NCBI RefSeq assembly: GCF_022867795.2
Contig: NZ_CP107006.1
Coordinates: forward strand, 1,426,001 to 1,490,000
Direction: 5' to 3'
Origin: Chitinophaga horti
GTDB taxonomy: Bacteria > Bacteroidota > Bacteroidia > Chitinophagales > Chitinophagaceae
DNA length: 64,000 nucleotides
Shown here: positions 12,727-34,730 of the stretch, in pieces
Layout: every line of letters begins with the position of its first letter
Numbering within the stretch: position 1 is the stretch's first letter
The notes under the pieces: generated by a model
The model's database searches: none
Told to the model about the DNA's origin: nothing
The model's input: the letters and a program-made list of their open reading frames with translations, nothing else
Position numbers and translations under genes: made by a program

Positions 12727-13053
12727 CTAAACCGCGAAGCTTTCCCCGCATGAGCAGGTGCGCGACGCGTTCGGGTTGTTAAAAACCAGGCCTTTGCCGT
12801 TGAGGCCGCCTGTGTAGTCCAGTTCTGTGCCGTAAAGGTACAGCAGGCTTTTGGTGTCTACTACTATTTTTACACCTTTATCTTCAAATACCTGGTCGTG
12901 CGGCTTTTCCTCGGTATCAAACTTCATCTGGTACTCAAGCCCCGAACAGCCGCCGCCCTTTACACCAACGCGTACGAAAGTACCGGGCACGTGGTTCTCA
13001 TTCACCATCAGCTGATCTATATAAGTCTTCGCCTGTTCTGAAACGGTTATCAT
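12727..13053 (-). CDS. sufA: A-type Fe-S carrier (SufA/IscA/ErpA family)
   Basis: 108 residues. The three cysteines that define A-type carriers are present: one in KGGGCSGLEY and two in TCSCGESF near the C-terminus. The protein carries nascent clusters from the SufBCD scaffold to targets. First gene of the minus-strand suf operon (sufA-B-C-D-S-E-T). Its 91-bp leader runs back to the divergent sufR-like regulator. SufA, IscA and ErpA cannot be told apart by sequence alone; the name rests on context. Confidence 0.93.
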   Translation of the reverse strand: MITVSEQAKTYIDQLMVNENHVPGTFVRVGVKGGGCSGLEYQMKFDTEEKPHDQVFEDKGVKIVVDTKSLLYLYGTELDYTGGLNGKGLVFNNPNASRTCSCGESFAV

Positions 13054-13144
13054 AAACGATTGTATTTAAATGAGTTATTGAATCAGTTCGGGAAGTTTTT
13101 CCGGATGATCTGATCGGGAATTTATTTCCAGTGCTGATTGAAAT

Positions 13145-13831
13145 ATGAAGCAAAGTTACGACATTTGTATTAAAACAAGTAGGAACTTGGAAAATTATAA
13201 GGCTCAAATATCCACCGCGGCAGACCGTTTTTTAACGCTGCTGAAAACCGGCGGCCCGCAGACGGCATCCGGTATGGCGAAGGAGTTGGGCATTACCGGC
13301 GAAGGCGCCCGGCTGCATCTTTTGAAGCTGCAGGAGGAGGGCCTGGTCGAAGCCGTAACCGAGCCTAAAGGAGTAGGGCGTCCGCAGCAAATATGGTCGC
13401 TCACCGAACGCGGCAACCGGCGTTTCCCCGATTCGCATTCTGATCTTACCGTTCAACTTATTAACACCATCGAAGAAGTATTGGGCCCCGACGCGCTCAA
13501 TAATGTGATCGTGGCCCGCGAGCAGGCCATCAGCGACCGCTATTACGAAGCATTGTCGCTCATCGATAACCTGCCCGATAAACTCGCCCGCCTCGCGGAA
13601 ATGCGTCACCGTGAAGGCTACCTGGCCGAATGGCGGAAAGACGGCGAAGCTTTTTTATTTATCGAACACCATTGCCCCATCTGTTCGGCTGCCAAAGTCT
13701 GCGGAAACATCTGCCAGGCCGAACTCAAAACCTTCCGCCGCATTTTCGGCGAACATGCCTCCGTCGATCGTATCGATCACCTCTTGTCCGGCGCTAAACG
13801 CTGTGTTTACAAGATCGTTCCTCTTTCTTAG
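13145..13831 (+). CDS. sufR: SufR-like Fe-S-sensing transcriptional repressor
   Basis: 228 residues from ATG 13145. An N-terminal winged helix-turn-helix (about residues 30-95, TASGMAKELGITGEGARLHL) is followed by a dimerisation region and a cysteine cluster near the C-terminus: HCPIC (Cys177, Cys180), Cys186, Cys190 and Cys220 in AKRCVYKI. This matches SufR, which binds an Fe-S cluster and represses suf genes when clusters are plentiful. It is divergent from the suf operon. The ATG lies downstream of the suf -7 element in the opposite direction, so promoter and coding sequence overlap. An in-frame TTG at 13187, preceded by AGGAAC, is an alternative start that would leave the operator noncoding (214 residues) and keep the whole HTH. 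Confidence 0.87.
   Translation: MKQSYDICIKTSRNLENYKAQISTAADRFLTLLKTGGPQTASGMAKELGITGEGARLHLLKLQEEGLVEAVTEPKGVGRPQQIWSLTERGNRRFPDSHSDLTVQLINTIEEVLGPDALNNVIVAREQAISDRYYEALSLIDNLPDKLARLAEMRHREGYLAEWRKDGEAFLFIEHHCPICSAAKVCGNICQAELKTFRRIFGEHASVDRIDHLLSGAKRCVYKIVPLS
13151..13180 (-). promoter_or_regulatory. suf operon promoter with overlapping palindromic operator candidate
   Basis: On the minus strand TAACTTTG (13158-13151) matches the Bacteroidota -7 consensus TAnnTTTG, and CTTG (13179-13176) can serve as the -33 element, although the 17-nt gap is slightly short. Between them lies an imperfect palindrome, ATTTGT-N6-ACAAGT (13163-13180, one mismatch in the arms). It overlaps the -33 element, as expected for a repressor site. 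Binding by the adjacent SufR-like protein is an inference. Confidence 0.6.
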
Positions 13832-13851
13832 CCATCTTTTTTCTCTCTTAT

Positions 13852-13942
13852 CAGCCCCCGTTGTGTCACTCACTTCAGCGGCAACGCGTGCTTCCACTTT
13901 TCAATTTTCCCTTTCCGTCATTGCGAATGAAATGAAGCAATC
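13852..13942 (+). repeat. Dispersed repeat, copy B with extended tail
   Basis: The 24-bp core (13852-13875) is identical to copy A. It continues with CAGCGGCAAC and, after a short variable stretch, CCGTCATTGCGAATGAAATG and AAGCAATC (to 13942). Copy D at 39276 carries a similar tail. The tail resembles the GTCATTGCGA...AAGCAATC repeats that I recall being scattered through many bacterial genomes. It starts 21 bp after the sufR stop. Confidence 0.72.
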
Positions 13943-14033
13943 TTCGTCGATAGTCTTTGCTCAGGAATAGCTGTCGGTGCCGGGCGTCAGATATCCAGGG
14001 TGTAAACCCTGTTCCGAAGTATTATCCACTTAA

Positions 14034-14204
14034 CATCCTTGCACCATCCTTGCAACTGCCTAGGTTCATCCTAGGTTCAACCTACGTTCAACCTACGTTC
14101 AACCTACGTTCAGATACGAAACATTAACGAAGGATGAACGAAACATTAACGAAGGATGAACGAAGGGTCCGTAAAGGATCACTAAAGGATCATCGAACGA
14201 TCAC
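14034..14204. repeat. Head-to-head array of degenerate 11-bp repeats
   Basis: Left half: CATCCTTGCAC/CATCCTTGCAA (14034-14055), a 3-bp phase break, then five 11-mers of the form CCTASGTTCAA (14059-14113). Right half: a 22-bp unit repeated exactly twice (14117-14138 and 14139-14160, each made of CGAAACATTAA plus CGAAGGATGAA), followed by four diverged 11-mers to 14204. The left unit, read as TTCAACCTACG, is close to the reverse complement of the right unit (TTCATCCTTCG), so the array is inverted about a centre near 14115. Noncoding; it lies in the 719-bp gap before the giant adhesin gene. Confidence 0.8.
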
Positions 14205-14447
14205 CGAAGCAAGCAGCTGCAATACTCACAGCATGCAGCAACTCTCCCAAACCATACACGAGATAGTCGCAAATAAATCAGCGGGAAGCCGCCACAGCCG
14301 TAGTCTGGTTAACAGTCGGTTAACATTTTATTTCGGGAGGAAGCAGCGAAAAAATCCGAATTTAACTCCCGGAAACGAGCAGAAATATTTCACAATAACA
14401 GATACACGAAATACTAAATCCAGATACTAAAATCTTTCTATCGTCTT
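14205..14447. other. Remainder of the long leader before the adhesin gene
   Basis: Part of the 719-bp region 13832-14550. A 98-codon open frame (14134-14430) runs through part of the 11-bp array and shows no recognisable domain or signal peptide; I do not accept it as a gene. GGTTAACA occurs twice close together (around 14308-14326). No clear TAnnTTTG promoter was found. Confidence 0.45.
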
Positions 14448-14499
14448 GCCTTAACCGGTAAGGCGTTAGCCCCAGCTATGGTTTCAAAATCGCCATAGC
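14448..14499 (+). promoter_or_regulatory. Two adjacent hairpins in the leader of the giant adhesin gene
   Basis: GCCTTA-ACCGG-TAAGGC (14448-14464) and GCTATGG-N11-CCATAGC (14475-14499) are perfect inverted repeats 52-103 bp upstream of the ATG at 14551. Neither is followed by a T-run, so they are not simple terminators. If transcribed they would form two consecutive stems in the 5' leader; otherwise they may be protein-binding sites. I do not recognise a riboswitch class. Confidence 0.5.
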
Positions 14500-14550
14500 G
14501 CTCATTAACCTGTAAAGAACACATAGTATATCACCATATTCCTGTAAACG

Positions 14551-17500
14551 ATGACTCAATTTTACAAGCAATGTAAATTGAATGGATTTTTATTGCCCGG
14601 ATTTTTGTTACTGTTGTTTGTTTTTAACCCTTTTAAACAAACGCTCGCAGAGGGTAGTAAGGAAATGAACGCCAATGGCGGCAGCCGGGCATTTATGTAT
14701 AGCACCACGGTGCCCAACGCTACCAATATCTATCCTACACTTGGTACGGTAAAGGTATTTGTACGCCCCGGCGAAACGATTCACGTGGGTTCCAGTGCGC
14801 AGGGGATAGGCGGAGGATACATCGTACTTCGTGCACCTAACGGCACAACATATTCAACGCAAAACTATGGCGCTACGGGAAGAATAACGAACCGCTCACA
14901 GGAAGTGGCAGGGCCTTTTATTCTCTTGCTCAACCTCGGTGGTTACGCGTCGGCAACTTTCCCGGTAAGTAATACCCAGGGCGGTATCTGGGAAATCGAC
15001 TTCCTGCCGCCTAACGCCAACAGTACTACGCAGCCGGCCGCTATCAGTGCATCCGGCAACTGGACGCAGCCTAACACCGCGTACATTGCGGCTTTCGACG
15101 TATCGGTAAGAAATACGGCTAACACAGGATGGGTTACCGGCCGTACTTACACTAATATTTTCACAGGTAGCCTTGGTAACTTTAACCAGCCTTTTAATGC
15201 GCTGTTCTATGCACTTACCCGCGACGGTTATCGTTACACGATCAATAACAACGGGCAAACCGGTTATGGCTTCTCCTTCTTCGTAAATAACAAGGGTGTA
15301 CAAACCGCGGCAGGAGAGCCTTCGTACAAAAGCTTCAACGACCTTTCCGGCTTCAATATGCAGGATCCCCGCGAAGAGGATACGGAAACAGACTATACCG
15401 CTAAACTTTTCTTTAATGCGCCGGATGAAACAATGCCCACATCGGCCACCACGCGAACCGGCACCACCTGGCTGATTACGCAGCCGACCAGTCCCGTGGC
15501 GACCAACTATTCGTTCAGGGGGCGGAAGGTACGCAGAACGTGGCCGGTACAAACCCGACGGGCGGTTATATCGGGTTCTCGTCCAACGTTACCACCAACT
15601 ATGCAGTAGATATCGATGTAAATAACAACGGGGTGTATTCCGACGCGGTAGACCGGCGACTTACCGGTACGGCGGTCGTCGGGGCCAATTCGGTGTTCTG
15701 GGATGGTTTGAATGGACAAGGTGTGAAAGTGACGACATCGGGAAGTACGACGGTCAACATGCGGGTGATATTATTCACGGGGGAGTTACACTTCCCCTTT
15801 ATTGATGTGGAGAACAATGTAAACGGCATTGTTATCACCCGAACGAATGGCGGTAACCAGGGAAATATTGTGTATTGGGACGATACTAACATTACGTTTA
15901 CAGGCACACCATCCAACCCGATTAAAACCACGATCGATGGTATCAGTAGCGCCACGAACGGCCATAGGTGGGGCTCCACGGCATACAGTTCATCCGACTT
16001 CGGTAATGAAGTTATTCTCGATACCTGGACGTACACCACCAGTGCACCGCTTACTTCTTCGGTAGCGATACAACTGCGCGAATCCGATCTTGAAACGGTG
16101 AGTGTAACGCCCAATGTGGCCGCATTGTGCGTGGGACAAACGGTTACTTACACTGTTACCATGCGCAACAACGGTCCCAGCGCGGTGACCGGTGCTACGG
16201 CACGAATGGTGTTTCCTGCTAACCTGACGGGATTAAGTTTTGGTACACCGGTTACGTCCGGTGCAACGGTCACGGCGTCCTCTACTACTGCCACGCAACT
16301 GAATGCGACCTTAAATATGAACAATGGTGGTACGGTAACGTTTACCATCACTGGTACCATATCCTCTTTACCTGCTGGCGGCAACCTCGCTGTAACGGCC
16401 AGTATTATGCGTCCTGCCGATTACACCGACCCGGATGCGACCAACCCTGACGCCGCTGCACCGACTGATCCGCAGTCGGAGTGTGACAGTGCGCCTTCGG
16501 GTGTAGGGTGTAACAATATCAAAATATCTACACTGGTCGTAAGCCCGGTGCCTACTACTTCGAACGCAGGAGCCGACCAGGCCTTATGTGCTGTTACGAC
16601 CGCTACACTTGCGGGTAACACGCCTGCTGCCGGTACCGGCACCTGGACGCAGGTAAGCGGTCCGAATACGGCCACGATCACCACGCCTGGCGCCAGTAAC
16701 ACCACCGTTACCGGACTGGTAGCAGGTACCTATAATTTCCGCTGGACTATTGCCAGCGGTGTATGTACCGTGAGTGCCGACGATGTGGCGATTACCGTAC
16801 TGCCGGCGCTGGCGAACAATACCGTTACAGCACCGGCGACCACCACCTTCTGTGCGTCGGGCGATCCGGCTGTGATTACAGGGTCTACGCCTACAGGTGG
16901 CACGGGTGTTTATGGTTACCAGTGGCAGAGCTCCACCGACAATGTAACGTTTACAAATATCAGCGGTGCTACAGGCACTTCCTATGACCCACCGGCGATT
17001 TCGGCCACCACTTATTTCCGCCGGCAGGTAACTTCCGGAGGCTGTAGTACGCCGTCCAGCAGCAACGTAATTATGATTACGGTGCAGGCGGCAATCTCCA
17101 ATAACACCATCACCGCACCTGCAACCGCCGTATTCTGCGGCTCTGGTAATGCGGACGTTATCGCAGGAACTACCCCGTCAGGCGGCAATAATACATTTGC
17201 CTATCAGTGGCAGAGTAGTCTCGATAACAGCACCTGGAGTAATATCAGCGGTGCGATCGCGCAAACATATGATCCGCCGCCTGCTGCCGCAACGGTGTAT
17301 TACAGGCGGCTGGTCACTTCCGGAGCCTGTACCACGGCCGGCATCAGTAACGTGGTCACCATTTCGGTGAATGCCGCGCTCACAGCCGGCACGGTGGCCG
17401 GGAATCAAACCTTCTGTGTGAGCGGTGATCCGGCTGCCTTTACACAATCGGCTGCTCCCAACGGTGGGAATAGTGTGTACACTTATCAATGGCAGATATC

Positions 17501-20500
17501 TACAACCAGCGCTACAAGCGGTTTCTCAAATATAACCGGGGCAACGGGCGCTACTTATGATGCGCCGTCTGTTTCAGCCACCACCTACTATCGCAGGGTG
17601 GTAAGTTCTGAAGGTTGTACGGATGCTGTTAGTAATACGATTACGGTAACGGTTACGCCGGCGCTGACGGCCGGTACGGTTGCAGCTTCGCAGGCATTTT
17701 GTGCCAGTGGTGATCCGGCCGTATTCACGCAAACGGCGGCACCTACGGGGGGCAACGGCGTTTATTCGTACCAGTGGCAAAGCTCAACAACGAGTGCTAC
17801 TACTGGTTTTGCAGATATTACCGGTGCTACCTCCGCTACTTATGATGCGCCATCTATCTCTACGACCACTTACTATCGCCGCATCGTTCGTTCCGACGCC
17901 TGTGCGGATGCCATCAGTAACGTGCTGACGGTGACCATCAATCCGGCCATTGGAAATAATACCATATCGGCCAACCAGACGATTTGCGCAGGTAGTACTC
18001 CGGCAGCCCTCACCGGGTCTGTGCCGGCCGGCGGTAGTGGCAGCTTTACTTATCGCTGGGAGAGCAGCACAACAGGTAGCGCAAACTTTACGACGGCAGC
18101 TGGTACTGCCACCGCGCAGAACTACGCGCCAGGCGCGATTTCGCAGAATACGATCTTCAGAAGGATCGTAAGTTCCGGCGCCTGCGGCGAAGTAGCCAGC
18201 AATATCGTACAGATCAACGTTACGGCCGCACCAACAACGGCCAATGCCGGCGCGGACCAGGGACCTCTCAACGCTACGGCCGTTACACTGGCAGGCAATG
18301 CGCCTACAGTCGGTAACGGCACCTGGACGCAGGTATCAGGCCCCAATACCGCCAATATTCAAAATCCGACACAACCAGGTACCAGCGTAAGCGGACTGGT
18401 GGCGGGTAACTATGTATTCCGCTGGACGATCAGCAATGCACCTTGTACCGCCTCTTCCGATGATGTAACCATCACGGTGAACGCGGCGCCAGTAGCACAA
18501 AATGACGCCTCAACCACGAATGAAGATACACAGGTAACGATTAACGTAGCAGCGAACGACAGCGATGCAGACGGTACTTTGCAGGCTGGCAGCGTAGTCA
18601 TCGTTACCCAACCTGCAAACGGTACCTTAACCGTGAATGCCAACAACACTGTGATCTATATTCCGGCTGCCAACTACAATGGCACTGATAACTTCAGCTA
18701 CACCATTAAAGATAATCTTGGTACGGTATCGAATGTGGCTACCGTAACGCTTACGATCATACCTGTGAACGACGTACCTGTTGCAGGCGACGATAAGATC
18801 AACGCGCTGCAGGACCAGGTGTTGAACCTTCCGCCACCCGGACTGCTGGCCAACGACTTCGATGCGGATGGCGAGCAGTTGTCGGCCAGCGTGGTATCGT
18901 TCCCCGCCAATGGCACGCTGGTGATCAATTCCGATGGGTCACTTACCTACACACCAAGAGCGGGATATGTCGGGCAGGATGTGTTTTCCTATAAAGTATG
19001 CGACGCATCCAACACCTGCGATACCGGAACCGTTACCATCGATGTAGGTAATGTGAACGATGTGCCGGTAGCGAACGCCGACACATACACCGTGGCGGAA
19101 GATAATGTACTTACCGTGGCCGCAGCCGGGGTGCTCACCAACGATACCGATGCAGATGGCGATCAGCTGGCAGCGGCGCTGGTAACTGGTCCCACGAAAG
19201 GTACTTTAACACTAAACACGAATGGTTCCTTTGTATATACACCGAACGCCAATGCGAACGGTCCGGATAACTTTACCTACAACGCCTGCGATGCGAGCGG
19301 CGCCTGTTCCACCGCGACTGTCACCATCAATGTGACCGCCGTGAACGACAAGCCGCTGGCGATCGACGATGCCTACAATACCAATGAGGACGTGGCGCTC
19401 ACGGTTCCAGCACCTGGTCTGCTCACCAATGATACCGATCCCGATAACGACCCGCTGACAGCCAACGTGATTGTGCAGCCGCTAAATGGCAGCGTAACGC
19501 TGAACGCGGCAGGCAATTTCGTCTACACGCCGAACGCCAACTACAATGGTATCGACAACTTTACTTATCGCATCTGCGACAATGGCACGCCACAATTATG
19601 CGACACAGGTGTGGTAACGATCACCGTATCTCCGGTGAATGATACTGTAATTGTAGCAGCCGATAATTACACCACTGCGGAGGATGTTCCGTTGAGCGTA
19701 GGCGCGCCCGGCGTGCTGTCAAACGACACCGATCCGGATGGAGATCCGCTTACGGCCACTGTGGTTACGCAGCCTGCCCGTGGCACACTGGCGTTCAATG
19801 CCAACGGTTCATTTATATATACACCGAATGCTAATTTCAACGGCAATGATAGCTATACCTATCGTGCCTGCGACGCTTCCGGCGCCTGCCGCGTGGCTAC
19901 GGTCAATCTTATGGTGACTGCCGTAAACGACAAACCGCTGGCCGTGGACGATAGTTATACACTCAATGAGGATGTACCCCTGACGATCGGGATCCCGGGC
20001 ATACTGGGTAATGATACTGATGCCGACGGCGACGCACTGAGCGCGGCAGTAGTGGCCGGTCCGGTAAACGGAACGCTGACACTGAATGCCAATGGCAGCT
20101 TCACCTACACGCCAAACGCTAACTTCAATGGCACCGACCAGTTCACTTACAGGTTATGCGATAACGGTACGCCGCAGCTATGCGATACCGGGCTTGTAAC
20201 GTTTACCATTAACCCGGTGAACGACGTGCCGGTGGCAACGGACGACACCTATACTATTGCGGAAGATGGTGTGTTGACGGTAACTGCCCCGGGTGTGTTG
20301 GGTAATGACAGCGACGTGGATGGAAACACCTTAACGGCTGCCGTTTTAGTTGGGCCGCTGCATGGCACACTAACAATGAACAGTAATGGCGGCTTTGTAT
20401 ATACACCTGCCGCCAACTATAATGGTCCCGATTCGTACACCTATCGCGTTTGCGATAACAGCGGCGCCTGTGATACCGGCGCTGTCAGCATCACCGTGAC

Positions 20501-23500
20501 CGCTGTGAATGACCGTCCAACAGCAGCAGCGGATGCTTACACCATTGCAGAAGACAATACGCTCAACGTAGCAACTCCGGGTGTGTTGTTCAACGACCGT
20601 GATGCAGATGGAGATGCGTTAACCGTAACCCTTGTATCTACCACACCGAATGGCACGCTCACGCTGAACGCAAACGGCAGCTTCAACTTTGTGCCGGCTG
20701 CAAATTTCAACGGCGTAACCAGCTTCCGTTACAGCGTATGTGACGGTGGCAACCTTTGCGATACGACAACCGCGACCATTACCGTTACTGCCGTCAACGA
20801 CGCGCCGGTGGCGGGCAATGATACCTATACATTAACCGAAGATGTGCCTTTGTCCATAGCTGCGCCCGGCTTGTTAGCGAACGATACCGATGCGGATGGA
20901 GATGCGCTTACAGCTACCATTGCTACCAATCCGGTACATGGTACCGTAACTGTTAATAGTAACGGCAGCTTTGTTTATACACCGGCCGCCAACTACAATG
21001 GGGCCGACACCTTTACCTACCGCGTTTGTGATCCATCCGGCGCCTGTGTAACCGGCAGGGTAGCACTCACGGTGGCTGCGGCCAACGATGCGCCCGAAGC
21101 AGGCAATGATGCATACACCGTGCAGGAAGACGCGACCCTCACCATCAGCGGTACAGGTGTACTCTTTAACGATGTAGACCTGGATAATGACCCGCTCACC
21201 GCTGTGGTGGTACGTCAGCCAGCGCATGGTACACTTACCCTGAATGCCGCAGGTAATTTCACTTACACACCTGCGCCTAACTACAATGGCACCGATACCT
21301 TCACTTACCGGGCCTGTGATAACGGCACCCCGTCGCTGTGCGATACGGGCGTGGTGGTGATCACAGTCACACCCGTATCTGATCCGCCGGTAGCGGGCGA
21401 TGACAATTATACTGTGGCCGAAGATCTGCCATTGACCATCGCCGCTCCCGGGCTGCTGGCCAACGATGTTGATCCTGACCAGGGGCAAACATTGAGCGCC
21501 AGCGTGTTTACGCCTCCGGTTAACGGCACCATCACTATTGATGCCAACGGCAGCTTTGTATACACGCCAAGAGCGAATTTCAACGGTATTGACCGGTTCG
21601 TGTACCGTGTATGCGATAACGGTGCGCCTTCACTTTGTGATACCGCTACCGTGACCATTACCGTTACGGCCGTAAACGATGCGCCGGTAACCGCCAGCGA
21701 TAACTATTCGGTAGACGAAGATGCGGTGCTGACCGTTCCGGGACCAGGTGTGTTACTGAACGATGTGGAAGTGGATGGAGAGGCGATGACGGCGGCATTG
21801 CAGGTACAGGCGGCGCATGGTGTGGTGACCGTATCAGCCAATGGTGGGTTTATTTACACCCCTAACGCCGACTTTAATGGTATCGATAGCTTTACCTATC
21901 GTGCATGTGATCCTTCCAATAATTGTTCGCCCGGCGTGGTGCGCATCGTCGTAAACAATACAAATGATGCACCGGTAGCTGTGAACGATACGCTCAACGC
22001 AGTAGAAGACGTTCCGCTGACGATCGCCGCACCAGGTTTGTTAGGCAACGATACCGACCGGGATGGAGATGTGCTGATAGCCAGCATTAATACCCAGCCG
22101 GTAAAAGGCGCCGTGGTGCTGAACAACAATGGTAGCTTCACCTATACGCCCGATGCAGACGCCAATGGCGTGGATACGTTCCGGTACAATGTATGTGATC
22201 CCGGCGGAGCCTGCGCCATCGGGCTGGTCGTGATTAATATCACACCGGTGAACGATACGGTTCAGGCCAGGGACGATGAATACAATACCCCGGAAGATGT
22301 GCCGCTGAATGTGGCAGCACCGGGCGTACTGAGCAACGATGTAGACCGGGAAAATGATCCGCTGACGGTTTCCCTCATCGGTAGCATTCCTGCTACGAAG
22401 GGTACGCTGGTGCTTAATCCTGATGGGTCGTTCCAGTTTACACCGACGACGGATACTACCGGTACAATTACCATTCGTTATAGCGTTTGCGAGGCCAACG
22501 GGGCCTGCGATACGGCGACCATCATCATCAATGTAGGGGAAACCAATGATCCGCCGGTAGCAGTAGATGATAACAGGCCAGAGTACGCAATAGGAGAGGA
22601 TAGCACTTTAACGATCCCTGCCGCTATTGGCGTACTGGCCAATGATACCGATCCGGATAATACCACGCTTTCTGCAACTATAGCAACGCCGCCGGCGAAT
22701 GGTACGCTTACGCTGAACGCAGACGGATCATTCGTATACATTCCAAATCTCAACTTCAACGGCACTGACCAGTTTACGTATAATGTATGTGATGCCAACA
22801 ACGCCTGCGATGCGGGTACGGTTACCATTACTGTAAGGCCGGTGAATGATGCGCCGGTAGCTGCTTCTGATAGTGTTACCACTGCAGAGGATACGCCTGT
22901 AAGCGGACAGATTACCGCTGCATTGGACGTCGATAACGATGCGGTTACTTACACGACCCTGGTATCGCCGGCCTTTGGTGCGTTTACCATCAATGCCACA
23001 GGTGGTTACACGTATACACCTAACGCCGACTTCAGCGGATCCGACCAGTTGGTATACATCGTGTGCGATAATGGAAACCCGTCGCTTTGCGACACCGGCA
23101 GGCTGAATATTACCGTCACGCCGGTGAACGACATTCCTGTTGCAAACAACGACTTATACACGGTTAACGAAGACAATACGCTTACCGTAGCCTCTACGGG
23201 CGGCGTGCTGAATAATGATTTCGACCGGGATGCAGAGCCCATGGTGGCATCGCTCGACGTGCCACCTGCGCGTGGACAGGTAACGCTGGACAGAAACGGT
23301 GGTTTTGTATACACCCCGCAATTGAATTTTAATGGTCTGGATAGCTTCACCTACCGCGCCTGCGACGTAAGTAACGCCTGCGGTGTAGCGAAAGCGTACA
23401 TCAACGTATTGCCGGTTAACGATGCGCCGGTAGCTGTTGCAGATACGTTCTATCGTGCAGAAGATACGACGATCACCTTCCCGCCAAGCGTGGTGTTGAT

Positions 23501-26500
23501 CAACGATATTGATGTAGATGGGGATGTGCTTTCAGGCTACCCGATCGGTTCCCTGAGCAACGGCACCTTCGTATCAAACCCTGATGGTACGTACACATAT
23601 ACGCCGGCGCCGAATTTCAACGGCATCGATTACATTGACTATGTGGTATGCGATAACGGTAACCCATCGCTCTGCGACACCGGCAATATCGTACTCATCA
23701 TCGTGCCGAGGAACGACCCACCCGTTGCATTGGGCGACACTTACACGCTGGCAGAAGATGGCTTCCTGGAAGTGGATGCGGCTAACGGCGTACTTGCCAA
23801 CGATACCGATCCGGACGGAGAGGCGCTGGCGTCTGTGCTGGTAACTACTGCCAACGGTACAGTATTACTGAATACCAACGGCTCATTCTCTTACAGGCCT
23901 AATCCTAACTTTAATGGTGTAGATACGTTTGTATACCGTGCCTGTGATATATCTGACGCCTGCGACACGGCTGTAGTGAGGATCACGGTAACGCCCGTGA
24001 ACGACCGGCCGGTTGCTGTAGATGACGTATTCACCCGTTCAGAAGATACGGTGATCACTTTCGGTCCGGGCGTGGTGCTGGCTAATGATTTTGATCCGGA
24101 TGGAGATGTATTGACGGGCACGCCGCTGGGTCAGCTTACAAAAGGCACCTTCACCACCAATCCTGACGGCACATACACGTACACACCGGCGCGGAACTTT
24201 AACGGCACCGATAGTATTTACTACGTCGTGTGCGATCCTGCAGGACTGTGCGATACTGGCCTGATCAGGTTAATTATCACCCCGGTGAACGACGCGCCTG
24301 TCGCCAGCCCGATCTATTATTCAGTAACAGAAGATCAGCCGCTGACCGAACCTGCGCCGGGTATTATCGGAGACGACAAAGATCCCGATGGCGAAGACAT
24401 TGTGGCCGGACTGGTAGCCGGTCCGATCCATGGCACGCTCACCCTCAATGCGGATGGAAGCTTTAGCTATGTGCCTGACCGGGACTTTAATGGCAGGGAT
24501 AGCGTGATTTTCTCGCTTTGTGACATACAGGCTGCGTGCGATACCGCCATCGCTTACTTTGATGTGCTGCCGGTGAATGATCCGCCGGTGGTTGCTGGTA
24601 TTACCTTCAACGCAACGGAAGATACACCGCTCACAGTGGCAGCTCCTGGTGTACTTGGTAATAGTTCAGACCCTGATGGTGATCCGCTGACGGCCACCCT
24701 CATAGACGGTCCGCAATCGGGCACACTGGTATTGAATCCAGACGGAAGCTTCACTTATACTCCGAATGCGAATTATAATGGACAGGATGCGTTTACGGTT
24801 AACATTTGCGACAATGGCACGCCACAATCCTGCGGACAAATCACTGTTGTACTCAATATTGCCGCCGTGGACGATGTGCCTGTTGCGGTGAGCGATTCAC
24901 TCACTATCGCTGAGGACAACGTACTGAACGTACCTGCTCCGGGCATTCTGGCAAACGATATTAACCGCGACGATGATCCGGTTACGGCAAGCATTGTAAC
25001 CACCACTACCCGCGGGCAGTTGTCGCTGGACGGAGGTGGCAACCTGCAGTACACACCTGCCCTGAACTTCAATGGTCTCGACAGCGCCGTGTACCAGCTG
25101 TGTAAAGCCAACGGCCTTTGCGATACCGCGAAGATATACATCACCGTAACAGCCGTAAACGATGCGCCAATCGCCGTAAATGACCTCTTTGTGCGGGCTG
25201 AGGATACCGTGATCACCTTCCCGCCGAGCGTGGCGCTGATCAACGATATCGATCCCGACGGCGATGTACTTAACGGCAGACCGATTGGCAGTCTCACCAA
25301 AGGTAGCTTTACCGCTAATCCTGACGGCACCTACACCTACCGTCCGCTGCCGAACTTCAATGGAGTAGACAGCATCCAGTACGAAGTATGCGATCCGGGT
25401 GGCCTTTGCGATACCGGCCTTATCCGCCTGATCATCGAACCGAGGAACGACGCGCCGGTAGCGGGAGATGATAATTACAGTACGAATGAAGACATAGCCC
25501 TTAGTGTGCCTGCTCCGGGTGTACTGGCCAATGACGTGGATGTGGATGAAAATGACGCACTGAACGTCACCATTCTCCGTAACCCATCGCACGGCACCCT
25601 GCGTGTAAATAGCGATAACTCCTTCCTGTATACCCCTGCGCCCAATTACTTTGGCGTGGATACCTTCTGGTACGTGGTATACGACGCTGCTGGTTTGCGC
25701 GATACCGGTACCGTGCTCATTACCGTTAATACCGTAAACGACGCGCCAGTCGCAGTAGATAACGTATACACCCTCGACGAGCGCAGTTCCGTGTCCGACA
25801 ACATTCTCGCCAACGATAGCGATCCCGATAATGATCCGTTGACTGCGAGTGTGGTGACTGGTCCGGCCAATGGTGTGTTCACCCTTAACCCGAACGGCAC
25901 CTTTACTTATACGCCGAACGTACCATTCATTGGTATCGACCAGGTCGTATACGCCGTTTGTGATACCGGCAATCTCTGCGATACCGCTATCGTCACCTTC
26001 AACGTTCAAAACGTTAATGACAAGCCCCTGGCTGTAGACGATAATGTGACGGCCCGCGAAGACAGCCTGGTGACCGGCAACGTCCTCACCAACGACTCCG
26101 ATCCTGATGGCGACGCACTAACCGCCACCCTGGTAACAGCGCCCGTAAATGGAGCCGTAGTGTTGAATGCCGATGGCAGCTTCACCTACACCCCGAACGC
26201 GAACTACAACGGTCCGGATAGCCTCGTGTACCGCATTTGCGACAATGGAGGCCCCGTATTGTGCGACACCGCGGTAGTGCGCTTTACTGTAGTTAATGTA
26301 AACGATAAACCAGTAGCCATAGATGATACGCTGACCGTTACAGAAGATACCCCTGCAACCGGCAACGTACTGACGAATGATACTGATCTGGATGGTGATG
26401 CATTGACTGCATCTTTAGTGACCGCGCCGGTAAATGGGTCGGTCGTGCTTAATGCTGACGGCAGCTTTACTTATACGCCGAATGCTAATTACAATGGTTT

Positions 26501-29500
26501 GGATAGCTTGGTATATGCGGTTTGTGATAACGGCACGCCGGTAATCTGCGATACGGCGGTGGTGCGGTTTACGGTGACTGCTGTGAATGACAAACCATCG
26601 GCTGTGGACGATGCGGTTACTGTTGTTGAGGATACTCCTGCGACGGGTAATGTGTTGACGAATGATGCTGATCTTGATGGGGATGGGTTGAGTGCATCTT
26701 TGGTGACTGCGCCGGTGAATGGATCGGTTGTGCTGAATGCTAACGGTAGCTTCACGTATACACCGAATGCGAATTATAATGGATTGGATAGCCTGGTGTA
26801 TGCGGTCTGTGATAACGGAACGCCGGTGATCTGCGATACGGCTATTGTGCGGTTTACGGTGACTGCTGTGAACGACAAGCCGCTGGCCGTAGACGATGCG
26901 GTTACTGTTGTTGAGGATACTCCTGCAACGGGTAATGTGTTGACGAATGATGCTGATCCTGATGGGGATGCGTTGACGGCTTCTTTGGTGACTGCACCGG
27001 CTAATGGATCGGTTGTGCTGAATGCTGACGGTAGCTTCACGTATACACCGAATGCGAATTATAATGGATTGGATAGCCTGGTGTATGCGGTCTGTGATAA
27101 CGGAACGCCGGTGATCTGCGATACGGCGATTGTGCGGTTTACGATGACTGCTGTGAACGACAAGCCGCTGGCCGTAGACGATGCGGTTACTGTCGTTGAG
27201 GATACTCCTGCAACGGGTAATGTGTTGACGAATGATGCTGATCCTGATGGGGATGCGTTGACGGCTTCTTTGGTGACTGCACCGGTGAATGGTAGCGTGG
27301 TACTGAATGCTGACGGCAGCTTTACGTATATACCGAATGCGAATTATAACGGAGCTGACAGTCTTGTATATGCCGTTTGCGATAATGGTACGCCTGTGAT
27401 CTGTGATACGGCGGTGGTGCGGTTTACAGTAACCGCTGTAAACGACAAGCCGTTGGCTGTGGACGATGCGGTGACTGTGGTAGAGGATACCCCAGCCACT
27501 GGCAATGTGCTGACGAACGACTCTGATCTGGATGGTGATGCATTGACTGCGTCTTTAGTGACCGCGCCGGTTAACGGGTCGGTGGTGCTTAATGCTGACG
27601 GCAGCTTTACTTATACGCCGAACGCGAATTATAACGGAGCTGACAGTCTTGTATACGCCGTTTGCGACAATGGTACGCCAGTGATCTGTGATACGGCGGT
27701 GGTGCGGTTCACGGTAACGGCTGTAAACGACAAGCCATCGGCTGTGGACGATGCGGTTACTGTTGTTGAGGATACTCCTGCGACGGGTAATGTGTTGACG
27801 AATGATGCTGATCTTGATGGGGATGCATTGACGGCTTCTTTGGTGACTGCACCGGCTAATGGATCGGTTGTGCTGAATGCCGACGGCAGCTTCACGTACA
27901 CACCGAACGCTAACTACAATGGAGCCGACAGCCTGGTATACGCGGTTTGCGACAACGGAACACCGGTAATCTGCGACACTGCGATAGTGCGCTTCACCGT
28001 AACAGCCGTAAACGACAAGCCGCTGGCCGTAGACGATGCTGTAACGGTAGTAGAGGATACTCCAACCACAGGCAATGTGTTAACGAATGACTCCGACATA
28101 GACGGAAACACCCTCACCGCAACACTGGTGACACCACCGGTAAACGGCACTGTCGTTCTGAACGCTGACGGCAGCTTCACGTACACACCGAACGCTAACT
28201 ACAATGGAGCCGACAGCCTGGTATACGCGGTTTGCGACAACGGAACACCGGTAATCTGCGACACTGCGATAGTGCGCTTCACCGTAACAGCCGTAAACGA
28301 CAAGCCGCTGGCCGTAGACGATGCTGTAACGGTAGTAGAGGATACTCCAACCACAGGCAATGTGTTAACGAATGACTCCGACATAGACGGAAACACCCTC
28401 ACCGCAACACTGGTGACACCACCAGTGAACGGCACTGTCGTTCTGAACGCTGACGGCAGCTTCACGTACACACCAAACGCAAACTACAACGGAGCCGACA
28501 GCCTGGTATACGCCGTTTGCGACAACGGTACGCCGGTGATCTGCGACACTGCGATAGTGCGCTTCACCGTAACAGCTGTAAACGACAAGCCGCTGGCCGT
28601 AGACGATGCCGTAACGGTAGTAGAGGATACTCCAACGACAGGCAACGTGTTAACGAACGACTCCGACATAGACGGAAACACCCTCACCGCAACACTGGTG
28701 ACACCACCAGTGAACGGCAGTGTAGTTCTGAATGCCGACGGCAGCTTCACGTACACACCAAACGCGAACTACAATGGAGCCGACAGCCTGGTGTACGCCG
28801 TTTGCGACAATGGAACGCCGGTAATCTGCGACACTGCGATAGTGCGCTTCACCGTAACAGCCGTAAACGACAAACCGCTGGCCGTAGACGATGCTGTAAC
28901 GGTAGTAGAGGATACTCCAACCACAGGCAACGTTTTAACGAACGACTCCGACATTGACGGAAACACCCTCACCGCAACACTGGTAACACCACCGGTGAAT
29001 GGCACTGTCGTACTGAACGCTGACGGTAGCTTCACGTACACACCGAACGCTAACTACAACGGAGCCGACAGCCTGGTATACGCGGTTTGCGACAACGGAA
29101 CACCGGTAATCTGCGACACTGCGATAGTGCGCTTCACCGTAACAGCCGTAAACGACAAACCGCTGGCCGTAGACGATGCTGTAACGGTAGTAGAGGATAC
29201 TCCAACCACAGGCAACGTTTTAACGAACGACTCCGACATTGACGGAAACACCCTCACCGCAACACTGGTAACACCACCGGTGAATGGCACTGTCGTACTG
29301 AACGCTGACGGTAGCTTCACGTACACACCGAACGCTAACTACAACGGAGCCGACAGCCTGGTATACGCGGTTTGCGACAACGGAACACCGGTAATCTGCG
29401 ACACTGCGATAGTGCGCTTCACCGTAACAGCCGTAAACGACAAGCCGCTGGCCTTAGACGATGCTGTAACGGTAGTAGAGGATACTCCAACCACAGGCAA

Positions 29501-32500
29501 TGTGTTAACGAATGACTCCGACATAGACGGAAACAACCTCACCGCAACACTGGTGACACCACCGGTGAACGGCACTGTCGTACTGAATGCTGACGGCAGC
29601 TTCACGTACACACCAAACGCGAACTACAACGGAGCCGACAGCCTGGTATACGCAGTTTGCGACAACGGAACGCCGGTGATCTGCGACACTGCGATTGTAC
29701 GCTTCACTGTAACGGCTGTGAACGACAAGCCACTGGCCGTAGATGATACGGTGTTGGTGACGGAAGATGTGCTGGCATCTGGAAATGTGCTGACTAACGA
29801 TACGGACGTAGAAGGCGGTACGCTGACGGCCACGTTGATCAATGGTGGCGCAAACGGAACGATTGGATTTAACCCGGATGGCAGCTTTACTTATTTGCCG
29901 AACGCAAACTATAACGGCCCGGATAGCCTGGTATACCTGGTATGCGACAACGGTACGCCATCGCAGTGTGACACAGGCATTGTACGCTTTATCGTAAGTG
30001 CAGTGAATGACGCACCGGTTGCAGTGGCGGATACGATTACAGTAACAGAGGATATGCCGGCTACAGGCAATGTGCTGGCCAATGATATCGATGTGGAAGG
30101 AGGCACGCTTACGGCTACTTTGGTGACAGCGCCCGTTAATGGTACGGTGGTGTTGAACGGCGATGGTAGCTTCACTTATACGCCAAATGCAAACTATAAT
30201 GGTGCAGATAGCCTGGTGTACAGTGTTTGTGACAATGGTACGCCGGTGCAGTGTGCTACAGGTGTAGTGCGCTTCTTCGTAGCGGCTGTAAACGATAAAC
30301 CAGTCGCAGTGAATGATACGGTGCTGGTGACAGAAGATGTACTGGCATCCGGTAATGTGCTGACTAATGATACGGACGTAGAGGGCGGTACGCTCACGGC
30401 TACGCTGATCAATGGCGGGGCGCACGGTACGATAGGATTTAATCCTGACGGCAGCTTTACTTATCTGCCAAATGCAAATTATAACGGCCCGGATAGCCTG
30501 GTGTACCTGGTTTGTGACAATGGTACGCCATCTCAGTGTGATACAGGCATCGTGCGGTTTATCGTAGGTGCGGTAGATGATGCGCCAATCGCGGTGGCTG
30601 ATACGATCAATGTAACGGAAGATCAGCCGGCGACTGGTAATGTGCTGGCGAACGACATCGATCCGGACGGCGGACCGCTGAACGCAACGGTGGTGACCAA
30701 TCCTGCGCATGGTACGCTGGTGCTTAACCCGAATGGAACGTTTACTTATACGCCTGCGTTGAATTACAATGGGGTAGATAGTTTCAGATATCTTGTTTGC
30801 GACAACTCAACGCCTGCATTGTGCGATACGGGTGTGGTCCGCTTCTCCTTTACTGCCGTGCCGGATGCGCCGGTGGCAGTGAGGGATACCGTGGCTGTAA
30901 CAGAAGATCAGCCGGCGAATGCGAATGTGTTGACGAACGATTACGATCCTGATGGGGATGTGATCTCATCTACTATTATTACCGGTCCGAAACATGGTAC
31001 GGCGACGCTGAGCCTTACAGGCAACCTGGTATATACGCCTGCGGCGGACTTCAACGGTATAGACAGTATTACTTATGAGATTTGTGATCCTACCAGCCGT
31101 TGTAGCCGTGCAGTAGTAATATTCGATGTGGAGGCAGATAATGATGCACCGGTAGCACAGGATGATACGGTGACGACAACGGAAGATGTGCCGGTGACAG
31201 GCAATGTACTTACGAATGATACGGATCCTGAAGGAAATACGTTAACGGCTTCGCTGGTACTTGCACCGGAGAGCGGTACGGTGGTATTGAATGCCGATGG
31301 CAGCTTTACTTATACGTCTGCTGCAGACTTCTTCGGTACAGATAGCCTTGTATACCAGGTTTGTGATAATGGTACGCCATCGCTTTGCGATACGGCTGTG
31401 CTTAAGTTTACGGTAACTTCTGTAAATGATGCTCCTGTCGCATTGCCAGATACGTTATACTCGAACGGCGGTGCGATTGCTGGCAGTGTAGTCGATAATG
31501 ATGTGGATCCTGAAGGAGATGATATGTCGACTTCAATGGTAACAGCACCGGTAAATGGTACGGTGGTACTGAATGCGGACGGTAGTATTGTTTACACGCC
31601 GAATCCTGGCTTCCAGGGCCGCGACAGCCTGCTGTATGCGGTGTGTGATAATGGTTCGCCAAGTGCCTGCGATACGGCGAAGGTGATGGTATTTGTGGCG
31701 AACCAGGCACCGGTTGCGGTGAATGATACGGTGCAGGTATTGGTGCCAGCTGCCGCGACGTTCAATGTGCTTACGAACGACAGCGATCCAAATGGTGACG
31801 CATTGACGGTAACGCTACTGAATGCGCCATCCAGCGGTACGCTGCAGTCTAACGGTAACGGCAGCTACACGTACACCGCAGATAATAGCTTTGTAGGAAC
31901 GGTAACTATCACCTACCAGGTGTGCGACAATGCCACGCCTGCAGCCTGTGATACGGCGACGATCTTCCTGGTAGTGGTAAACCAGCGGCCGGTGGCGAAT
32001 GACGATACGTTACGTACGGTCGGCTCACAGATGGTAACGGGTAACTTGCTCACGAACGATACGGACGCAAATGGTAATTCGATCCTGAACGCCACGGTAG
32101 TGAAACAACCAACCAATGGTCAGATCGTGATCAACGGTCTGGGTAGCGCCACCTATATGCCGAACGCCGGTTTTGCAGGAATTGATACGGCGATCTACGC
32201 AGTGTGCGACAATGGAACGCCGGCGCTTTGTGATACTGCATACGTATTCATCATCGTAGGACAAGGTAACAGATCGCCCATCGCGATGGATGATGCAGTC
32301 AATGTAAATAACCTGCAACCGGCCAATGCGAATGTGCTGGCGAATGACAACGATCCGGATGGCAACAACCTCACGGCTTCACTGGTAACGGCACCTGTGA
32401 ATGGTACGGTGGTATTGAATGCAGATGGCAGTCTTACTTATACCGCCAACGCTGGCTTCACCGGAACGGATGTACTCGTGTACCAGGTATGCGACAATGG

Positions 32501-34730
32501 CACACCTTCATTCTGCGATACGGCCAGCGTGACCTTCACGGTGGTAAGCGGTAACCGTGCACCGGTTGCGATGAGGGATACCATCGGCGTAAACAACCTA
32601 CAGCCTGCTACTGGTAACGTACTGAACAACGATACGGATCCGGATGGTAATAACCTCACCGCGTCGCTGGTAACGGCTCCGTTAAATGGTACGGTAGTAC
32701 TGAACGCAAACGGCAGCCTTACTTACACTGCGAACGCAAACTTCACAGGTACAGACACACTTGTGTACCAGGTATGTGACAATGGTACGCCATCGCTCTG
32801 CGATACCGCTAGTGTGACCTTCACAGTAGTTCAGGGTAACCGGGCACCGATCGCAAACAACGATACGATGAATGTAAACAACCTCGTTCCGGCTACGGGC
32901 AACGTGTTAACGAACGACAGCGATCCGGATGGAGGTACATTAACGCCGTCTGTCGTAACCGCACCTGCAAACGGTACACTGGTATTAAATAACGACGGCA
33001 CGTTCACCTACACTGCGAATGCAGGTTACACCGGCAACGATTTCGCAGACTACAGGGTTTGCGACAACGGTACGCCGCAACGCTGCGATACAGCCAGGAT
33101 GGTGTTCAGGGTGATACAGGGTAACCTGCCGCCTGAAGCCAATAATGATACGGTACGGACGAACAACCTGACGCCGGCTACGGGCAATGTTTTAACGAAC
33201 GACAGGGACCCTGAGAATAGTACGATGACTGTCACCATATTGACCGCACCAGCTAATGGCAGCGTGACGCTCAATAGCGATGGTAGCTTCACTTACATAC
33301 CAGCCACGGGCTTCACCGGTACCGAGTTTATGGACTACCGCGTGTGTGATGCCGGCGTTCCGCAACGTTGCGATACGGCCAGGGTAGTGTTTGTGGTTGG
33401 CCAGGGTAACCGGGCTCCGTTAGCGGTGGATGATACGGCCCGCACAGTTAGTCCACAGCCGGTGACAGGCAACGCGCTTGCCAACGACAGCGATGCGGAT
33501 GGTAATACGCTGACGGGCAGTCTCATTACACAACCTGCCAATGGTACGATCAACTTCAGTGCGAATGGAACGTTTACGTATACACCGAATACTGGTTTCG
33601 TAGGAACTGATGCGGTGGATTACAGGGTGTGTGACAACGGTACACCGCAACGTTGTGATACGGGCCGTATTACGTTCATCGTAGCGCCTAACCTGCCGCC
33701 AGTTGCTATAGACGATACGCTGCGGGTAACAGGGCCAACACCAGTGAATGGTAATGTACTCACCAACGACTCCGATCCGAACGGAAGGCCTGGGCTCACC
33801 AGCAGCCTGGTAACAGGACCGCGCAATGGTACGCTGGTAATCAATGCGAACGGTAGTGTGACTTACACTGCGGATGCCGGCTACTATGGCCTCGACAGCG
33901 CTACGTACAGGATCTGCGACAATGGCTCGCCGGCGCTTTGCGATGAAGGTAAGATCGTCTTTGTGATCTCCGACATCACCCGTGCGATGATAGGCGCTTC
34001 CAAAGCGGTATCTGAACCGATACTGCTGCCGGATGGTTCTTACCAGTTCACCTTCACGTTCGTCGTGCGAAACATGGGTAATACGGCATTAGGCAATATT
34101 TCACTGAATGATGACCTCACCAATGTGTTCCCGGCACCAATGGACGCGAGAGTCGTGGCAGTAACGGCGACAGGCAACCTGGTGGCAAACGCGCAGTACA
34201 ACGGTCGCGGTAATATCAACCTACTGGCTGCTTCCAGCGCACTGGCACCTGGTGTGACGGATAGCGTGAAGCTGGATATGAAGGTGTTCCCGAATGGCCG
34301 CTTCGGTACGTTCAACAACCGTGCTACGGCCGGTGGTACCGCTTCAGGCGGGGCAACGGTAACGGACCTGACTACGGTAGGACTTAACCCGGATACCAAC
34401 AACGACGGCATGCCGGATGAAAATGAGGTAACGCCGGTTGGTTTGCCAGAGATCAAGATCCGCATACCGGAAGGCTTCTCGCCGAACGGTGACGGTAAGA
34501 ACGACTTCTTTGTACTGCAGGGTGTAGGCACCGACCGCATCGCGCTGGAAGTATATAACCGTTGGGGTAACGTAGTATACCGCAGCGATAGTTACCAGAA
34601 CAACTGGAATGGTAAGTGTAACACGGGCATCCGCTATGGCGAAGATGTGCCGGACGGTACTTACTACTACATCGTCAGGAACCTGACTACGGGAGAAAAA
34701 TTTGTTAGTTACATCACAATAATGCGTTAA
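14551..34730 (+). CDS. Giant SprB-like T9SS surface adhesin with ~54 cadherin-like repeats (one frameshift)
   Basis: After correcting one missing base the product is ~6,726 residues, about the size of Flavobacterium SprB. Order: signal peptide (~1-33); an unassigned N-terminal region; DUF11-like domain (~514-655); PKD-like domain; five Ig-like repeats of the FCASGDPA...YQWQSS type; a second PKD-like domain (~1228-1310); ~54 cadherin-like/tandem-95 repeats (~1310-6470) with [12 protein letters not shown] and [14 protein letters not shown] motifs; a DUF11-like domain; and a type B gliding/T9SS C-terminal domain (~6633-6726, [32 protein letters not shown]). The Asp-rich loops suggest calcium binding. 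The frame breaks in the G5 run at 15518-15522: the first frame carries the signal peptide, the second the remaining ~6,400 codons. G6 would restore [20 protein letters not shown]. It should be exported through T9SS and attached at the cell surface. Only 4 bp separate it from the PorP/SprF gene. Confidence 0.9.
26298..29717 (+). repeat. Twelve 285-bp tandem repeats inside the adhesin gene
   Basis: Twelve units of exactly 285 bp (95 residues; adhesin residues ~3917-5056) start at 26298, 26583, 26868, 27153, 27438, 27723, 28008, 28293, 28578, 28863, 29148 and 29433. Every unit begins VNDKP and carries VVEDTP or a close variant. Units 7-12 are almost identical in DNA. Units 1-2 resemble units 5-6 more than their immediate neighbours, pointing to a 4-unit (1,140 bp) duplication. 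Copy number is likely to be unstable and hard to assemble from short reads. Confidence 0.95.
29718..30857 (+). repeat. Two-unit (570-bp) duplication of cadherin-like repeats
   Basis: Units starting 29718 and 30288 share the otherwise unusual motif [20 protein letters not shown] and [11 protein letters not shown]. Those starting 30003 and 30573 share [12 protein letters not shown]. The A-B-A-B order with a 570-bp period suggests an older duplication of a two-domain block just after the recent array. Confidence 0.8.

Follow-up and report, generated by a model that had tools for sequence, protein, structure and literature searches.

The tandem 11-bp repeats in front of a giant adhesin gene of Chitinophaga horti are one copy of an intergenic element that occurs 26 times in the genome. 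From the comparison of sequences, such arrays are probably dispersed, helically phased multi-sites of fixed architecture for an oligomerising DNA-binding protein, a reading to which we give a probability of about 0.55. The window analysed here is a 64,000-bp stretch of DNA, positions 1,426,001–1,490,000 of the 6.31-Mb single-contig C. horti genome. In searches of the literature, no account of arrays of this kind in Chitinophaga was found.

Design and distribution of the element

The array in the window (14024–14201) consists of eight 11-bp units, a 2-bp dyad, and eight further 11-bp units arranged head to head with the first, giving 178 bp in total (Table 1). An earlier note on this DNA had placed it at 14034–14204 and counted about fifteen degenerate 11-mers. 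The array and its head-to-head units are indeed present, but the units number 16, and the left and right edges had been set about one unit and 3 bp off, respectively. The exactly doubled 22-bp unit that had been reported, ACGAAACATTAACGAAGGATGA, is found in exact copies at 14116–14137 and 14138–14159. This alternation in the right arm is unusual among class A copies; the window copy has a class A left arm and an atypical right arm. Close upstream of the array lies a REP-like palindrome, CATTGCGAATGAAATGAAGCAATC (13919–13942), and similar motifs occur near arrays elsewhere in the genome.

Table 1. Features of the adhesin locus, in window coordinates
Feature	Position	Strand	Remarks
HTH regulator ORF	13145..13831	+	weak HTH_20/PadR match; upstream of array
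Left arm	14024..14111	+	eight 11-bp units, class A; outer three of ATCCTTGCNNC type, inner five of CCTAGGTTC/CCTACGTTC type
Dyad centre	14112..14113	.	AG, 2 bp; 2-bp spacing constant across 26 copies
Right arm	14114..14201	-	eight 11-bp units, opposite orientation; inner units alternate ACGAAACAT / ACGAAGGAT
352-aa ORF	14551..15609	+	first gene downstream of array; related ORF in C. sedimenti L126
Giant Ig/cadherin-like repeat adhesin ORF	15540..34730	+	neighbour of the element, not a part of it

DNA searches with the design of the window array returned 25 further copies, and all 26 are intergenic, as expected of the dispersed genomic repeat that the earlier note had named as its own alternative. 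Centred on the dyad, they align over 134 columns with zero gaps and with the same unit number and phase; a chance origin of the array was rejected on these grounds. Written in left-arm sense, with the right arm reverse-complemented, the unit consensus is approximately A-T-(CC)-T-(TC or AG)-G-T-(T/A)-(C/T). In the C. horti genome and in C. sedimenti, A1, T5, and G8 are kept in 89–100% of inner units, and positions 3–4, 6–7, and 11 are variable. The unit profile of an uncultured Chitinophaga genome (G015) agrees, except that T5 stands at 79%. The period of 11 in most arrays and the near-invariance of A1, T5, and G8 support the earlier suggestion that a period of one helical turn could place a protein on the same face at each unit. 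The outer three units on each side form a separate type (ATCCTTGCTGC / GCAGCAAGGAT).

The arrays are unevenly distributed among gene gaps. They are enriched between convergent genes (8/26 arrays vs 7/67 background gaps of at least 250 bp, P=0.03) and depleted between divergent ones (2/26 vs 26/67, P=0.003), where gene calls and background gaps were obtained from fetched genome stretches with a simple home-made gene caller. No common function was noticed among the adjoining genes that were read. Paired motifs of poor conservation, GGTAATATCCTACC / GTTAAAATACTATCAC, flank about half of the copies (e.g., L016, L019, L023) and are possibly the ends of a larger element. Rfam covariance models gave no match to window 13000–15000 up to E=1.

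Several other repeats accompany the arrays or resemble them. Array flanks (e.g., L010, L015, L021, L023) contain a further dispersed repeat, which has the segments gggtgtaaacctattttaggacgtgaca and cggattatctcac, and a third one with gggagtgacacaacgggggc. Shorter, near-perfect palindromes of the same 11-mers occur in G013, G026, and G035 (L031, L032, L033, L037, L038), some of them inside a larger repeated element common to two species. Moreover, two contigs of G015 terminate at an array (L219, G015:C93; L225, G015:C39), which suggests that these elements break short-read assemblies. Within Bacteroidota, the BrickBuilt MITE of Porphyromonas gingivalis, as far as described in the parts of the source consulted, is likewise a dispersed intergenic element with tandem repeats inside. 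It has 19 intergenic copies with 23-bp head-to-tail repeats and leader and tail ends, and differs in that neither a dyad nor a cognate gene family is reported for it in those parts (PMC4596501).

Conserved positions and the linked small proteins

Two genomes of the genus were used for comparison, namely C. sedimenti KCTC 52590 (G083) and the uncultured Chitinophaga MAG G015. From C. sedimenti 38 arrays were fetched: 20 of family 1, which has the same design as the C. horti element with its own polarity, whereas the other 18 represent shorter 11-bp families, chiefly family 2, which has a loop. Half of the C. horti copies (13/26), the window locus included, have an array in the orthologous C. 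sedimenti gene gap. By our own estimate from background gap density, with ~700 comparable gaps per genome, one or two such coincidences would be expected by chance. The partners at the shared gaps are eight family 1 and five family 2 arrays, and from this mix it follows that arrays at a given position have changed class. The flanking genes are mostly 65–99% identical, and the intergenic DNA outside the arrays barely aligns; to judge from these alignments, array position outlives array sequence between species. One locus bears arrays in all three species (L026, L116, L216), and the L025 locus likewise in three species, the more distant G078 among them. A strong array is absent from the L023 locus in 28 less related species, which counts against the reading as binding arrays.

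The candidate for the binding protein is a family of small proteins. One class A array (L012) and one class B array (L026) are each followed directly by a gene encoding a ~102-aa protein (genome positions 2015403 and 5121525), with the start codon facing the array. Close homologs number two each in C. horti, C. sedimenti, and G015, and all six lie beside an array with the start codon facing it; in C. sedimenti, genes of the family stand beside arrays of family 1 (L121, L124) and family 2 (L140). On the other hand, 24 of the 26 class A/B copies in C. horti have no family gene alongside, which also weighs against a binding role. An alignment search with the short protein found only C. sedimenti and one MAG. 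Longer homologs (~180–220 aa) are found in other Chitinophaga species and in other genera of Chitinophagaceae; of 299 genomes sampled from the order, 10 have them, all from one family, and one genome (G014) has 17 matches.

The regions upstream of these homologs also contain 11-bp units in tandem that are specific to each lineage, for instance GCATTCCTATA in G072, NAGTGGTTCAN eight times together with TATAGGGTTTT in G198, GACGAAGGATG in G273, AGCGAAGGATG in G325, and a paired GAGCGAAGGAT in a further genus. Self-similarity was highest at lag 11 in 24 of 30 regions upstream of homologs against 39 of 746 control regions (Fisher P 3e-20, with a conservative 22/30 used), and lag 11 also led in 17 of 28 regions of a second set with other genera included; many of the homologs are paralogs of one genome and not independent, so that these counts are inflated. 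Other clear periods are 10 bp (L256) and 21 bp (L157, L164), both likewise equal to whole helical turns of B-DNA. Additionally, a family gene lies downstream of a class C array (L283, 3.115 Mb), and nine class D arrays lie upstream of MIQ-type genes of the family.

In C. horti the two short paralogs are 52% identical, each behind a different array class; with one array class they are 82% identical in C. sedimenti and closer still in G015. Paralog divergence thus tracks array classes, as protein–DNA coevolution predicts, as a correlation over few cases. Searches with the small protein in Pfam, NCBIfam, PHROGs, and PDB sequences gave no match. An AlphaFold2 model from four sequences shows a helix, a beta hairpin, and three helices at mediocre confidence (pLDDT 71, pTM 0.46); Foldseek with this model found no structural relative in the PDB, and the lack of a recognised DNA-binding fold in so mediocre a model counts against binding. 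As the protein has no recognised fold or family, we infer DNA binding from the genomic arrangement. The genes surrounding L026, L116, and L216 are orthologous with or without the small gene, so no partner gene travels along with it.

A known system of comparable layout is ParR/parC of plasmids R1 and pB171, in which tandem 10–11-bp repeats upstream of an operon form the centromere and a small protein binds them with strict cognate specificity between families (PMC9426499). The likeness lies in repeats standing before the gene, as with the six close homologs directly downstream of arrays, binding being putative here. However, the Chitinophaga arrays lie on the chromosome in dozens of copies and, except for the direct repeats of class D, are symmetric about a dyad. 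Furthermore, to judge from the orthologous surroundings of L026, L116, and L216, no ParM-like partner appears to accompany the small gene, and its product, by a weak model and with no match in PDB folds or sequences, is not recognised as ribbon-helix-helix.

On the preferred reading, the 102-aa proteins would occupy neighbouring units on one face of the DNA, symmetrically about the dyad and presumably in a cooperative manner. Through the array next to their own gene, they would tune their own promoter. As a weaker inference, the remaining copies may not switch the adjoining gene but serve as landmarks on the chromosome, with class B marking the origin zone and class A the rest.

Array classes and chromosome position

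The classes differ at positions 9–10 of the inner units: class B has TA there (ATCCTTCGTAT), class A either TT or CT (ATCCTAGGTTC). Classes were called by the count of TA units among the ten inner units, without use of genome position. Of the 26 copies, the 11 closest to the GC-skew switch (~5.575 Mb) have 4–9 TA units of ten and are class B, whereas the 15 farther away have none or one and are class A. The border lies ~1.0 Mb from the origin on both sides, and class B occurs only inside that zone. The chance that the 11 class B copies are exactly the 11 nearest the origin is 1.3e-7, and a scan of all possible centres gave the best class–position correlations at 5.5–5.68 Mb. Local copying or gene conversion was considered as the source of the zones and rejected, as isolation by distance is absent in class A (Mantel r=+0.14) and in C. 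sedimenti family 1 (r=0.03), with class B alone being less clear (r=-0.25, P=0.07); its absence in class A means that the zones are not simply explained by local copying. The collinear C. sedimenti genome does not have the origin-zone split, which makes the division by origin distance a one-genome result. Inspection of C. sedimenti also revealed no association of element orientation with replichore.

Two further classes were found in the C. horti genome. Class C, with CATCCTTGCTA units, occupies about 10 loci. Class D consists of direct repeats of CCCAACCATCA at 25 loci, against 0 matches for a reversed control pattern, and is found at 0.2–3.5 Mb (L264–L280) and at 6.2 Mb (L281, L282). It clusters around the terminus, most loci being within ~1.2 Mb of it, and its direction is that of replication in 22–23 of the 25 loci when the terminus is placed between 2.2 and 2.4 Mb.

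These distributions could mean that paralogous small proteins mark chromosome zones, each reading its own class of phased 11-bp arrays, with class B for the origin, class A for the region beyond 1 Mb, and polar class D for the terminus; we regard this extension as rather unlikely, and a chromosome-zone role of the arrays as possible but unproven. In Escherichia coli, MatP recognises the 13-bp matS at 23 sites in the terminus domain, and maoS, the site of MaoP, is single (PMC3330122, PMC5023128). In the C. horti genome the arrays may resemble these systems in that the chromosomal distribution of sites follows terminus or origin zones. They differ in being 16-unit arrays with unrelated proteins, and their zoning is present in one species and absent in C. 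sedimenti. Literature searches found no organising sites forming such a position code described for the phylum of Chitinophaga.

Alternative explanations and implications

The copies might instead be a selfish, REPIN-like repeat, that is, non-autonomous copies spread by a mobilising activity, with the array plus gene as source copy; this is possible, but we hold it to be the less probable account. Known REPINs are dispersed intergenic inverted repeats with the cognate RAYT gene beside few copies (PMC3116915), and the Chitinophaga arrays are likewise dispersed, inverted, and intergenic, and some copies, with array and gene together, look like sources. Insertion hot spots and replication-coupled insertion, perhaps favouring sites near the source gene, would then have produced the shared positions, the zones, and the polarity. 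This account is favoured by the 17 family matches in G014, by the co-directionality of class D with replication and its clustering near the terminus, and by the paired flank motifs on about half of the copies. However, 16 phased 11-bp units over 178 bp stand here against short REP doublets, array positions are conserved between species, and the family protein matches no transposase. The sole match to a Y1 (REP-type, PF01797) transposase (genome 2170689–2170913) is not beside a class A/B array, and neither target duplications nor empty sites were seen. The copies are also old, as indicated by their likeness of ~79% within a class and by the 13 orthologous gaps whose intergenic DNA is barely alignable.

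A more local role, as an operator or enhancer for the adjoining gene and here for the adhesin operon, is improbable. The array centre lies ~440 bp upstream of the 352-aa ORF and, at the related adhesin operon of C. sedimenti (L126), ~508–510 bp upstream of the related ORF, and other arrays are immediately upstream of small-protein genes; against this stand the positional bias towards convergent and away from divergent genes and the lack of a common function among neighbours. The earlier annotation of this locus (HTH ORF, 352-aa ORF, giant repeat protein, and a PorP/SprF gene following the adhesin ORF) is broadly correct, and the HTH ORF has an orthologue of 88% identity near the C. sedimenti array. 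The adhesin-specific regulatory role that had been proposed is not supported, given 26 copies genome-wide, 8 of them between convergent genes, and 12 other conserved loci with unrelated genes. It is best to regard the copy at the adhesin as one ordinary array of the dispersed set, and a local effect on the operon is possible given the C. sedimenti array. Phase variation, also proposed, fares no better: the 26 copies of this one genome show zero indels, and a unit number and phase that never vary are evidence against slippage. Inside the adhesin gene, 285-bp tandem repeats (26121–29752; 12.7 copies, 88% matches) are a likelier site of real length variation than the array.

Still less probable is a hairpin of RNA or single-stranded DNA, acting as 3'-end stabiliser, terminator, or cruciform. 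The array folds more stably than its shuffles (z ~ -4.9 as RNA, -4.6 as DNA), and array positions are biased to gene 3' ends. Nevertheless, standard pairing fails in ~25% of mirror pairs, the periods of 10, 11, and 21 fit turns of B-DNA, and mirror units within an array are no more alike than mirror positions across arrays (identity within vs other arrays: class A 0.716 vs 0.762, class B 0.727 vs 0.757, C. sedimenti 0.690 vs 0.740). Since the arms do not covary within arrays, a cruciform, which the earlier note had considered, or an RNA hairpin is not what is conserved; the symmetry belongs to the site, as with a symmetrically binding protein, and not to pairing. Raw covariation of mirror columns was set aside, as its counts, although they look significant, can arise from the existence of two classes.

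Whichever reading holds, the array in front of the adhesin is not to be read as an adhesin phase switch. Should the element prove selfish, it would be a population of REPIN-like repeats for which no transposase is recognised. A functional zone pattern would provide a candidate for site-specific chromosome organisation in Bacteroidota. In either case, an undescribed multi-copy protein family of Chitinophagaceae is tied to a dispersed DNA element, and because the design, positions, and classes of that element are readable straight from sequence, simple binding tests would be decisive.
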